Below are positions 30,754 to 39,811 of a DNA stretch of 40,021 bases, in pieces. The translations under genes were made by a program, and so were the position numbers. Below the pieces are notes generated by a model. It did not search any database. It was given only the letters and a program-made list of their open reading frames with translations, and was not told the origin of the DNA. The stretch lies in NCBI GenBank assembly GCA_903870315.1, contig CAIQCJ010000022.1, forward strand, positions 1-40,021, written 5' to 3'. The DNA comes from an uncultured bacterium (GTDB lineage Bacteria > Patescibacteriota > Minisyncoccia > Phycocordibacterales > PALSA-1337). Position 1 is the stretch's first letter; the number at the start of each line of letters is the position of its first letter.

Positions 30754-31212
30754 CTAATGAGTTCTTAGTGCGCGGAAGTCTCTTATATAAGCTATACTTT
30801 TGCTCATAGAATATAGTGATCCTATAAGTAATGCCAATACAGCCATAATACTCAGAACTGGTAATGTCTCTATGAGTGCCATACTGAGCTCTTTCCAAGA
30901 ACCAAGCATACTTGCTCCGTCTGTCAGTATCATAGAGAAATAAGAAGTAAAACCAGATCCAACCATCGCATCTAACATGGATTTGAATGCTGGTATAAAA
31001 GCGGCGATAGTCAAACAAGTGATTACTGCATAGCTAGTACCTCTTATAGTGTCATGTCTAGTTTTTGCGGCTAGGATACTATTTTCTATGTTCAATAAGA
31101 CATAATAAGGGGCCTTCTTATAAGCTGTCTTCTGGAACAGTATTTTGTAGCTATTTTCGATGGATTGTTCTTGTTTCATTTGTTTTGTAGATAATACGAT
31201 TTTATCTGTCAT
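30754..31212 (-). CDS. Small membrane protein, candidate anti-sigma factor
   Basis: Soluble N-terminus plus TM helices; start overlaps the stop of the ECF sigma gene. Confidence 0.5.
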   Translation of the reverse strand: MTDKIVLSTKQMKQEQSIENSYKILFQKTAYKKAPYYVLLNIENSILAAKTRHDTIRGTSYAVITCLTIAAFIPAFKSMLDAMVGSGFTSYFSMILTDGASMLGSWKELSMALIETLPVLSIMAVLALLIGSLYSMSKSIAYIRDFRALRTH

Positions 31213-31810
31213 TGTGGTGCAACATAAGGGTTTCCCTGATTTTTTGTAATGATCGGCGATGCCAACTCTTCACTGTATTCATGGGCCTAGTCAGGACAGC
31301 AGCTATCTCTTCGAAGGTCATCTCGTCTGTATAATGCATGATAAGTACAGCTCTCCAGTCAGGGTGTAGAGTTTCCATGGCCCCATTTAATTCCTTAGAC
31401 AACTCTTTTCTCTCAAATATCTCTGGAGATAATAGCTCTGGGTCTTTGAGTGTTTCTGCAAAAGATGGCTTGTCTCCATCTGAGCTAGAACTAGTCCGAC
31501 TCTCAGATCCAAATGAATCCATGTCTGAGAAAGAAAAGGCTTTGCGTTTCTTTATATGGTCTAGAGCCGAATTCCTGGCAATAGTAAAAAGCCAAGTAGT
31601 GAATTTCTTTCCGGTTTTGAAACTCTTGATATGTTTCCAGGCTTTCAGAAATGTATCTTGAGTGATATCGTCAGCATCTTCTTTGATATAAGAGTATTGT
31701 CTGACGAAATTATATATATGGTCTACGTGTCTTCTGGTCAATATTCCAAAAGATTCGTCATCTCCAGTCTTCGTCAGCTCGACTAGTTCCTCATCTGTAT
31801 ATTTGTCCAT
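31202..31810 (-). CDS. ECF-type RNA polymerase sigma factor
   Basis: Region 2 (DADDITQDTFLKAWKHIKSF...FTTWLFTIARNSALDHIKKRK) and region 4 (MTFEEIAAVLTRPMNTVKSWHRRSLQKIRE). Confidence 0.92.
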   Translation of the reverse strand: MDKYTDEELVELTKTGDDESFGILTRRHVDHIYNFVRQYSYIKEDADDITQDTFLKAWKHIKSFKTGKKFTTWLFTIARNSALDHIKKRKAFSFSDMDSFGSESRTSSSSDGDKPSFAETLKDPELLSPEIFERKELSKELNGAMETLHPDWRAVLIMHYTDEMTFEEIAAVLTRPMNTVKSWHRRSLQKIRETLMLHHNDR

Positions 31811-34399: not shown

Positions 34400-34438
34400 A
34401 GCAAATTGGCGCGCACTTGCCCGTACACGCCAATTGCT
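34400..34438 (+). terminator. Hairpin downstream of the PD-(D/E)XK gene, probable terminator
   Basis: AGC(A)AATTGGCG ... CGCCAATTGCT followed by ATTTTGT. Confidence 0.5.
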
Positions 34439-34607
34439 ATTTTGTAAGCCCGCCTAAGTTTTTTTGTTATTACATAAGTGGTTTATTTTGCTGGGTAAAG
34501 TCGGTTTATCCAGCTAGGAAGTTGACGTCACGCATCAAGACTATTTTATTAAGGACTACATCGACATGTAATCATCATAAGTCTATCTTCGTCAGATAAA
34601 ATTTTAA

Positions 34608-34670
34608 TCAAAAAATTTTCAAGAAACGTTCAAGAAGTTCTCAAGAAACTATGAAGAAATGACGAAGAAA
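34608..34670. repeat. Six tandem units at exact 11-bp spacing, consensus T(C/G)AAGAAA-N3
   Basis: Units start at 34608, 34619, 34630, 34641, 34652, 34663: TCAAAAAA, TCAAGAAA, TCAAGAAG, TCAAGAAA, TGAAGAAA, CGAAGAAA. Confidence 0.85.
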
Positions 34671-34676
34671 ACAAGA

Positions 34677-35348
34677 TTACGAGTTGATGATATATCCTCG
34701 ACCAGGCATATTGATGATTATTTCCTTTTCGTTTACGGAATTGAGCTTTTTGCGGATGTTTCTTATGTGAGCCTCGACTGTATTGGAGAATGGATCACTA
34801 TCGGCCGTCCAGACATGTTCCATAATAGAGCTACGGGACATGATAGTGTCAACATTGCGTACAAGGTCTTCCAAGACACCGAATTCTTTTCGCGTCAGTG
34901 GTACATCCTTGTTATCTAAAGTGGTGGTCTGTTTGTTTGTGTCCAAGACGAGTTTTCCTACTTTGATATTGTTATCTTTACGTAACTCTTTTGGTCTACG
35001 CAGCATAGCCTTTATCCTGGCATGCAACTCTGACATAGAAAAAGGCTTGGTCATATAGTCGTCTGCTCCAGCTTCTAGAGCAGCCACCTTGGTATCGGTG
35101 TCAGTGTTTATAGATAGAAAGATAATCGGTGTTGATCTACCACTAGCACGTATCTCCTTACAGATAGTCAGGCCACTCTTTTTGGGTAGAGAATTGTCCA
35201 ATATAACCAGGTCATAATCATAACTTCTGGCTAGAAAGCCACCTTCTTGACCATCTTCAGCTGTCTCCACAGTATATCCAAAAGCACCAAGGCCTTTTTG
35301 CACCATTTGTGCTATGTACTTGTCATCTTCTACGAAGAGTATTTTCAT
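34677..35348 (-). CDS. OmpR/PhoB-family response regulator (no kinase nearby)
   Basis: Receiver VEDDKYI...LVILDNSLP...KPF; winged-helix C-terminus LTRKEFGVLEDLV...VEAHIRNIRKKL...GRGYII. Confidence 0.94.
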   Translation of the reverse strand: MKILFVEDDKYIAQMVQKGLGAFGYTVETAEDGQEGGFLARSYDYDLVILDNSLPKKSGLTICKEIRASGRSTPIIFLSINTDTDTKVAALEAGADDYMTKPFSMSELHARIKAMLRRPKELRKDNNIKVGKLVLDTNKQTTTLDNKDVPLTRKEFGVLEDLVRNVDTIMSRSSIMEHVWTADSDPFSNTVEAHIRNIRKKLNSVNEKEIIINMPGRGYIINS

Positions 35349-37623: not shown

Positions 37624-38445
37624 ATGAAAAACAACACAATCAAAATTCACGCACTGAACATAGCGATCATATCAGTGGTAGTAGTCTTGGTGTCTTTGGC
37701 TTCTGCAAGCAAAGCCCATGGATGTTCAGAATATGACGGTTGTTCAGATAGCGAATATACCAATAACGATAGCTATCTTACATATCCAGACACTTCCTAT
37801 GGCTATTCAAATCCTAGTACGACTTATACTTCTACGGCGTATTATTACAGTTCTCCAGCTTATCAATATACTTCGTATCCTGATTATCAGTCGAATTATA
37901 CATATTCTCCATCTTACCAATACTCTTATTCTAAGCCTTCCTACACTGGTTCTTATCAGTACCCAGCGATCAAAAATACTGGTGGCCCTATAACTGCTAC
38001 TTGTTACCCACAACCATTGTCTACTTATGTTGGAACAGCAGTCCAGTGGACGAGCTCTGTTTCTGGTGGTGTAGACAACTACAATATCACTTGGATAGGG
38101 GATGAAGGTTTGTATGGTTATGGCCCTTCTATAATGAAGACCTACAATACCTCTGGTTCTAAGACTGCCAGTATCAAGGTCACATCCGGTGGTCAGACTA
38201 CTACTGTAAATTGTTCAAATTCTATCAATGTTATGGACAATTTAGTTTCAAGCAACTATTATCAGTCGGGGTCGTATAATAATCAGTATAGTAACTATAA
38301 CAATTATAGTAATTACGGCTATAATAGTTACAATAGTGGCTCCAATTATGACTATTCTAGCCATGGCAACAATTCAAATTATAGCTCTCCTAACTACGAT
38401 AATCAGATCTATAACTATAATAACAGCCAATACTCCTATCGATAG
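37624..38445 (+). CDS. Secreted protein: one Cys-paired PKD-like domain plus Tyr/Asn/Ser-rich low-complexity regions
   Basis: Signal peptide then HGCSEYDGC, Tyr/Ser-rich stretch, C-x-W...YNITWIGDEGL...SGSKTASIKVTS...C domain, NYNNYSNYGYNSYNSG tail. Confidence 0.8.
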   Translation: MKNNTIKIHALNIAIISVVVVLVSLASASKAHGCSEYDGCSDSEYTNNDSYLTYPDTSYGYSNPSTTYTSTAYYYSSPAYQYTSYPDYQSNYTYSPSYQYSYSKPSYTGSYQYPAIKNTGGPITATCYPQPLSTYVGTAVQWTSSVSGGVDNYNITWIGDEGLYGYGPSIMKTYNTSGSKTASIKVTSGGQTTTVNCSNSINVMDNLVSSNYYQSGSYNNQYSNYNNYSNYGYNSYNSGSNYDYSSHGNNSNYSSPNYDNQIYNYNNSQYSYR

Positions 38446-38462
38446 GCACTAGATGATGACTA

Positions 38463-38492
38463 TTGACAAAAGAGGTACAGTAGTGCTATAAT
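38463..38492 (+). promoter_or_regulatory. Consensus sigma70-type promoter
   Basis: TTGACA-N18-TATAAT with TGC extended -10; ATG at 38534. Confidence 0.8.
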
Positions 38493-38533
38493 ACTACTAC
38501 TATTAACAATAAACACGAGCAATCGTTAAATAT

Positions 38534-39811
38534 ATGAAAAATACACGCATAATCAAATACAGTCTGTTGTCTATAGCCAGCATTTGTGCCGTGGTAGCGA
38601 TAGTCTTCTTGACTTCCGCTTCTGTAGCTCATGGTTGTTCAGCTTATGATAACTATTGTGGTACGGCTCCGGTATACAACTATACTGGTACTTACCAATA
38701 TCCTATAGTTCAACCAAACGTCAGTCAACTAAATGCTACTTGTTACGCCACACCTCTTTCAGTCTATGCTGGAGGTACCACCCAGTGGGCTAGCTCAGTA
38801 ACTGGTGGTATCGGTTCTTATAACATAACTTGGATGGGTGACGAAGGTCTTTCTGGTTACGGTTCTGTCATCACCAAGACGTATTACAATGCAGGTTCTA
38901 AGAGTGCAAGTATAACAGTGCTATCTGGTAGTCAGAGAGTGTCTGTAAATTGTTCTACTACGGTAAATGTTATCGGTTCTTCGAACTATTATAATTACAA
39001 TAACTATAACAATTATACGGCACCACTTTCAGCAAGCTGTTCTGCAAATGCAAGCTATGCCGGTCTCGGATCTGCTGTTACGTGGACTACTAGTGTAACT
39101 GGTGGTAACGGATATTACACATATAACTGGGGTGGTACTGATGGCATATATGGCAGCAGTCAGTCAGTAGCTTATACATACAATACCCCTGGTTCTAAGA
39201 CAGCTTACGTCTCAGTAACTTCAAATGGTCAGACTACCACGTCTTATTGTACTAACCCCGTCACAGTAGGTTCTACATATGGAGTCATATATCAAAATGG
39301 ATATAATGTCATAAACTCAAATACAGCTAATTCTCTAGATATTGGTTGTTACGCAGATCCTATAACGAGCACTATAAATCAGCCTGTTACATGGAATGTA
39401 GAAGTCACTGGTGGTATCGCTCCTTACACATATTCTTGGACAGGTTCTGATGGTTTGAATAGTGCTCAGGTCAATGCTATCAAGTATTATTCTACAAACG
39501 GTGTTAAGAGCGCCATAGTCACAGTTACTTCAGCTGATGGTAAGACCGGTACTCGTTCTTGTAGCAATACAGTAACTGTTGGCTCAACAAGTAGAGGTTC
39601 TGTCGCTGGTGCAAGTTCTAATAACAATACATCTGGAACAAACAGTAATACGGTCGCACCTTCAAATCAGACAAATCAAAACGGTAGTCAATTGACTGGT
39701 TCAGCTATATTCTCCTTCGATAACGTTCCTTGGGGTTGGATAGCGATACTCATCATTTTGGTTTTGTTTGCTACAGTTATGTATCTCTTGTTCAACAGAC
39801 AAAAGATTTAA
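38534..39811 (+). CDS. Surface protein with three Cys-paired PKD-like domains and C-terminal TM anchor
   Basis: Signal peptide then HGCSAYDNYC; three repeats of C...V(T)W...VTGG...Y...W.G.DG(L)...Y...G.K.A.V.V.S....C...V.V; C-terminal WGWIAILIILVLFATVMYLLFNRQKI. Confidence 0.85.
   Translation: MKNTRIIKYSLLSIASICAVVAIVFLTSASVAHGCSAYDNYCGTAPVYNYTGTYQYPIVQPNVSQLNATCYATPLSVYAGGTTQWASSVTGGIGSYNITWMGDEGLSGYGSVITKTYYNAGSKSASITVLSGSQRVSVNCSTTVNVIGSSNYYNYNNYNNYTAPLSASCSANASYAGLGSAVTWTTSVTGGNGYYTYNWGGTDGIYGSSQSVAYTYNTPGSKTAYVSVTSNGQTTTSYCTNPVTVGSTYGVIYQNGYNVINSNTANSLDIGCYADPITSTINQPVTWNVEVTGGIAPYTYSWTGSDGLNSAQVNAIKYYSTNGVKSAIVTVTSADGKTGTRSCSNTVTVGSTSRGSVAGASSNNNTSGTNSNTVAPSNQTNQNGSQLTGSAIFSFDNVPWGWIAILIILVLFATVMYLLFNRQKI

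Follow-up and report, generated by a model that had tools for sequence, protein, structure and literature searches.

An OmpR/PhoB-type response regulator as the probable activator of a natural-competence regulon through long arrays of 11-bp direct repeats

Overview

In the small-genome bacteria considered here, a natural-competence regulon is probably under the positive control of an OmpR/PhoB-type response regulator that acts on long tandem arrays of direct repeats, with a structured RNA as one of the products. One such array lies next to the regulator gene in the window (the whole stretch of 40,021 nucleotides that was analysed, from an uncultured bacterium). It is in phase with a -10 element, behind which the RNA begins with a covarying hairpin. 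The same array stands at eight further promoters of the genome, mainly those of competence and pilus genes, and the arrangement at the regulator locus is conserved in the genus.

A repeat array in phase with a promoter

The original prediction listed six plus-strand units of the form T[C/G]AAGAAA-N3 starting at 34608, 34619, 34630, 34641, 34652 and 34663, and that is exactly where they are found. The consensus was slightly off, since units 1, 3 and 6 read TCAAAAAA, TCAAGAAG and CGAAGAAA, and the count was short by one further unit on the promoter side, at 34592-34602. The repeat is best read on the minus strand as TTYTTnATCnn, of which seven direct copies make up the array (34592..34670, minus strand). 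A six-unit core of 66 bp (34594-34659, minus strand) recurs genome-wide. The array lies upstream of a -10 hexamer, TAGACT (34580-34585, minus strand, in an element at 34580..34588), and 8 bp separate this hexamer from the core, a spacing that is fixed in 29 aligned loci and at nine sites of this genome. In most relatives the -10 takes the extended form TGnTAnnnT.

Could such an array be a matter of chance? It has the strongest lag-11 and lag-22 periodicity of the 40-kb window, by Tandem Repeats Finder as well as by a scan of lags. Between the stop codon of the regulator and the promoter, lag-11 identity is 0.64, a value that none of 5000 dinucleotide shuffles reached (0.34 +/- 0.05), and in 3000 shuffles of the same interval no lag from 8 to 15 gave a value as high as that observed. 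A four-unit matrix scores 31.4 at the array, whereas its best score in the rest of the window is 6.3; with spacings of 8-10 and 12-15 bp the scores are at most 18, and 387 kb of control DNA contained no score of 26 or more. Chance and low complexity are ruled out as the source of the array by the shuffles, the spacing controls and the control DNA.

Orthologues of the regulator, with 50-70% identity, are present at 28 further loci of the same genus. The order of regulator, 11-bp array in phase with a -10, and hairpin RNA is kept at all 29 aligned loci (these 28 and the window); the original prediction had been made to depend on the 11-bp spacing being conserved in relatives, and so it is. When the loci are aligned on TGnTAnnnT, TTnA positions recur at -12/-11/-9, -23/-22/-20, -34, -45, -56 and -67, and pooled identity exceeds that of shuffles by 15.9 standard deviations at lag 11 and by 19.6 at lag 22. 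The greater strength of the lag-22 signal suggests that the half-sites may be read pairwise, as by dimers. Within the units an A is conserved in 115 of 116 cases and two Ts in 109 and 114 of 116 (with a shift of 1 bp allowed per locus), a base-specific pattern that points to recognition by a protein.

Elsewhere in the window, a sigma-70 region 2/4 protein (ECF-like; 31202-31810, minus strand) is followed by a small membrane-protein ORF (30754-31212, minus strand), which could encode its anti-sigma factor. Two adjacent exported-looking proteins, rich in Tyr, Ser and Asn and with repeated domains, are encoded at 37624-39811 (plus strand), and an 88-bp tandem repeat at 2593-2756 has two copies of a unit resembling a tRNA gene.

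The same presumed operator at competence and pilus genes

What do the arrays control? A search of this genome for phased 11-bp repeats, as suggested along with the original prediction, finds the 66-bp element at nine promoters. All nine elements consist of the same six units, arranged identically, with 92% pairwise identity. Each is followed, after 8 bp, by a -10-like hexamer, which matches TAnnnT in eight of the nine; in the 40 bases beyond the hexamer the identity is 35%. The matrix scores of the nine sites are all near 30, and the next candidate reaches 16.8.

The elements stand before comEC (Pfam Competence, 1.5e-48), an N-methyl prepilin gene, a GspE/PilB/ComGA-type ATPase gene that is followed by a PilC/ComGB-like gene (named by eye), dprA, comM (Mg_chelatase/ChlI), rpsF-ssb (ribosomal protein S6, then a single-strand binding protein named by eye), the gene of an LCAT/beta-helix exported protein, the gene of an 84-residue coiled-coil protein and, at the window locus, the structured RNA. 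An operator shared by comEC, dprA, the pilus ATPase, the prepilin and ssb (the last by eye) is what marks a natural-competence regulon. At least six of the nine sites are at competence or pilus genes, for which P is about 5e-10 with assumed gene numbers. (Not classical competence genes among those with arrays are rpsF-ssb, the LCAT and coiled-coil genes and, in other species, transposase genes.) The ATG of the comGA-type gene, of dprA and of comM comes about six bases past the -10, so these mRNAs are likely to be leaderless.

Arrays were also searched for with R2, a sequence-only four-unit profile whose E-values are rough. It gives 6-37 matches per genome of the genus, with best E-values down to 1e-8. 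In 78 genomes of other genera the best E-values are mostly 0.01-0.3, and single weak own-genome matches are thus not trustworthy. In three other species of the genus (G003, G023 and G016), an array of species-specific sequence stands before the same kinds of genes as in the window's own genome, as well as at the gene of a ComEC-like metallo-beta-lactamase protein (recognised by eye; no Pfam match) and before genes of Y1 (RAYT-type) transposases. Single sites from 28 loci of the genus agree in part with the gene kinds of the regulon. Transposase genes of the Y1 type with a competence array in front are seen at L221 and L230 (G003) and at L313 (G084). Proteins that by eye resemble NYN-type nucleases follow arrays at L301, L305 and L308 in other genera and at L183 (G027).

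How do operators of so many units stay alike across a whole genome? The question is an evolutionary one, raised by near-identical six-unit arrays that stand at unrelated promoters and are specific to each species. Over the best 44 bases, arrays agree to 92% between promoters within a genome, versus 69% between species for the same gene (p=5.5e-11, the pairs being non-independent). Whole arrays are likewise similar within and different between species in G000, the window's own genome (L199-L216), G003 (L219-L230), G023 (L232-L234) and G016 (L235-L238). Such concerted evolution might reflect either constraint on each position or the spread of arrays by copying.

The regulator and its presumed binding sites

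The presumed binder of the arrays is encoded at 34677..35348 on the minus strand. It has the receiver with conserved Asp and the Trans_reg_C winged helix that define the OmpR/PhoB family (Pfam Response_reg 7e-28, Trans_reg_C 7e-20), and its phospho-acceptor, D51, is invariant across 28 aligned orthologues, as are D8, D9 and K101. It falls below the cut-off of the NCBIfam PhoB equivalog TIGR02154 (174.4 versus 296.2 bits), and alignment against named genomes returned only distant regulators from other phyla. The arrays fit the direct-repeat binding of OmpR/PhoB-type proteins, with its period of about 11 bp, and binding by this regulator is predicted. It is the sole Trans_reg_C protein found in its own genome, and the same holds for its counterparts in G003 and G018.

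Beyond the genus, arrays and regulator tend to occur together. When 78 other genera of the order are sampled with one genome apiece, the median number of array matches is 17 with a close regulator homologue and 4 without (p=1.3e-6, at a homology cut-off set after the data were seen); at least 12 matches are found in 10 of 13 genomes with such a homologue versus 3 of 65 without. G041 was placed among the former via a 57%-identical fragment, and moving it to the other group gives p=6.7e-6. The association has its gaps: G050, G092 and G101 carry the regulator and few array matches, and the regulator homologues of other genera mostly have no array beside the gene. In G028 (76-87% complete) arrays are present, and the only OmpR-type domain found is a different one. 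A clear exception is G100, which like G030 and G033 has arrays and no OmpR-type domain found. That the window array serves as an operator of the OmpR-type regulator next to it is well supported by the spacing, by the geometry relative to the -10, by the conservation throughout the genus, by the co-distribution and by the fact that the genome has no second OmpR-type DNA-binding domain. The operator is not an isolated one, nor is it the titration array of the accompanying suggestion, this being one of nine promoter copies that form a competence regulon.

In the proposed mechanism, six or seven 11-bp half-sites would be occupied by regulator dimers in head-to-tail order, with the proximal unit in place of a -35 element, and RNA polymerase would be recruited to the -10. 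The same operator would control the competence (DNA uptake) regulon genome-wide and, at the window locus, would drive the structured RNA. Several parts of this model are suggested by the sequences: binding of the arrays by the regulator, activation as its effect, DNA uptake as the outcome, and a regulatory role for the RNA as a product of the regulon.

The sign of control could be the opposite, with the regulator repressing the same competence genes, and sequence alone cannot tell the direction. However, the array stops short of the -10 on its upstream side, and the proximal unit takes the place of the -35, which is how PhoB- and CiaR-activated promoters are laid out (PMC3348028, PMC3091779), and repression appears unlikely. 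The operators might also be read by another DNA-binding protein, with the adjacent regulator a bystander. Such a protein would account for G100, a 96% complete genome that has strong arrays, one of them before comEC (L298), and that yielded no OmpR-type DNA-binding domain, and likewise for G030 and G033, which have arrays and no such domain found (both 76-87% complete). On the other hand, the regulator is constantly adjacent in the genus and co-distributed with arrays across genera, 11-bp direct repeats are typical of OmpR-type proteins, and G000 has no other protein of this type, all of which makes a bystander role improbable. A structural array, either phased A-tracts that bend the DNA or a decoy that titrates the regulator, would agree with A/T-rich runs one helical turn apart, but the conservation is base-specific and not A-tract-like, and every copy belongs to a promoter and keeps a constant distance to the -10; we give this very little credence. 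Activation by the regulator remains the preferred reading.

The structured RNA and the sensor kinase

The original prediction saw no gene directly downstream of the array. This is right for protein genes, but a conserved RNA is predicted to start there. Its presumed transcript (34401..34573, minus strand) has inferred ends, taken from a -10 six bases before the first hairpin and from a strong hairpin at the 3' end. The 5' hairpin, HP1 (34554..34573, minus strand; model R1, E 8.8e-7), is GAUUACAUGUCGAUGUAGUC in the window and GGUUAUGUGUCGACAUAACC in many species, and the gap between it and the -10 is about six bases (5-8 across loci). Seven of its eight pairs show two-sided changes, with covariation matched in 0 of 500 shuffles; the loop GUCG is invariant, and GUCGA nearly so. 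HP1 as a DNA dyad is disfavoured, as covarying stem arms and a conserved loop fit RNA. Model R1 finds one copy each in 30 of 34 genomes of the genus, including all 19 near-complete ones; in 347 genomes outside the genus it gives two weak matches (E 0.004 and 0.0098), probably by chance. A second hairpin with a GGCAG-type loop lies 3' of HP1 in most species, on weaker evidence because it was found by motif search. Its counterpart in the window is the terminal hairpin with the loop GGGCA (34401..34437, minus strand; -24.4 kcal/mol, z=-3.9), which probably serves as terminator for this RNA and the convergent gene alike. The Rfam covariance models, including that of tmRNA, do not match the RNA; tmRNA is in any case encoded elsewhere (G000:C20:11564-11925). 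Translation through HP1 was likewise rejected, the ATGs being in different frames. A csRNA is transcribed from an OmpR-type direct-repeat promoter and ends before a coding gene. For the predicted transcript, the window has such a promoter and a 3' hairpin, and in 15 of the 29 loci a kinase gene follows.

This gene encodes a histidine kinase and starts 80-215 bases past HP1; it is absent at the window locus. At L013, L014, L022, L025, L026 and L029, the interval from HP1 to the start of the kinase gene has a small ORF with an aligned ATG, ending in PWNS, PWNG or PWSS, which might encode a leader peptide. Small ORFs after HP1 at other loci are shorter and different, the lengths overall being 4 to about 30 codons. 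Within the genus, close homologues of the kinase are found at the regulator locus; in G012 a weaker homologue (E 3e-33) lies at another place. The window's own genome has distant kinases only (E 2e-15 or worse), so that the regulator is an orphan here, as it had been called at the outset, with no partner kinase beside it. The orphan state probably arose by loss of the kinase, since at L269 and L273, in other genera, the array lies between the regulator and a downstream membrane-protein ORF that is presumably the kinase.

Is the transcript, then, a mere 5' leader, or attenuator, of the sensor kinase gene, surviving here as a relic of the lost kinase? The kinase gene downstream of HP1 in 15 of 29 loci speaks in favour of this. 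A relic would be expected to decay, however, and the array, the -10 and HP1 persist in the 14 loci that have no kinase, near-complete genomes among them. A leader and nothing more is thus a possible but rather doubtful description. That species without the kinase have kept the array, the -10 and the hairpin suggests that the RNA may matter by itself, and a leader role is likely too in the species that have the kinase. It is quite plausible, although we would stop just short of calling it probable, that these small genomes harbour an undescribed competence regulon with a single OmpR-type regulator, operators that evolve concertedly as whole arrays and a trans-acting RNA that was kept after the kinase had been lost.

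Relation to known systems

Why would such a regulon matter? If these bacteria are Patescibacteria, as their genome sizes of 0.4-1.4 Mb and their gene content suggest, DNA uptake counts among the few genetic handles on them and is a way for reduced genomes to acquire genes. One regulator, an operator that can be read in the sequence and a definite list of genes make it testable when and why cells become competent. Transformation of a Saccharibacterium requires ComEC, and the word "regulator" is absent from the paper (PMC10633639); the open-licence literature yielded no described competence regulator or small RNA of such a kind in these bacteria.

The layout of the arrays appears to be of the same kind as the sites of PhoP, PhoB and CiaR, with more units. 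The streptococcal CiaRH system and its csRNAs (PMC3091779) combine an OmpR-type regulator with direct repeats of 11-bp period (TTTAAG-N5-TTTAAG, ten bases from the -10); CiaR drives small RNAs, and there is a link to competence. However, CiaR promoters have two half-sites each, whereas there are four to ten here, and the competence link is indirect in CiaRH, while here the operator is on the competence genes themselves. Sequences and RNAs of the two systems were unrelated in the tests made. The pho box of PhoB, which contacts sigma (PMC3348028), and class II activation by PhoP of M. tuberculosis, with 7-bp motifs and 4-bp spacers (PMC4832192), similarly have head-to-tail direct repeats over the -35, but the arrays here are longer and have another recognition sequence and another regulon.

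As for the genes controlled, RpaA of Synechococcus (PMC7125226) is also a response regulator that governs competence and pilus genes. It differs in being a clock output with more than 134 targets plus sigma factors, and the available part of that source describes no such arrays. The late-competence regulon of pneumococcal ComX (PMC6560143) resembles the present one in that dprA, an ssb gene and pilus genes are co-regulated, but there the regulator is an alternative sigma factor instead of a response regulator acting through an array.
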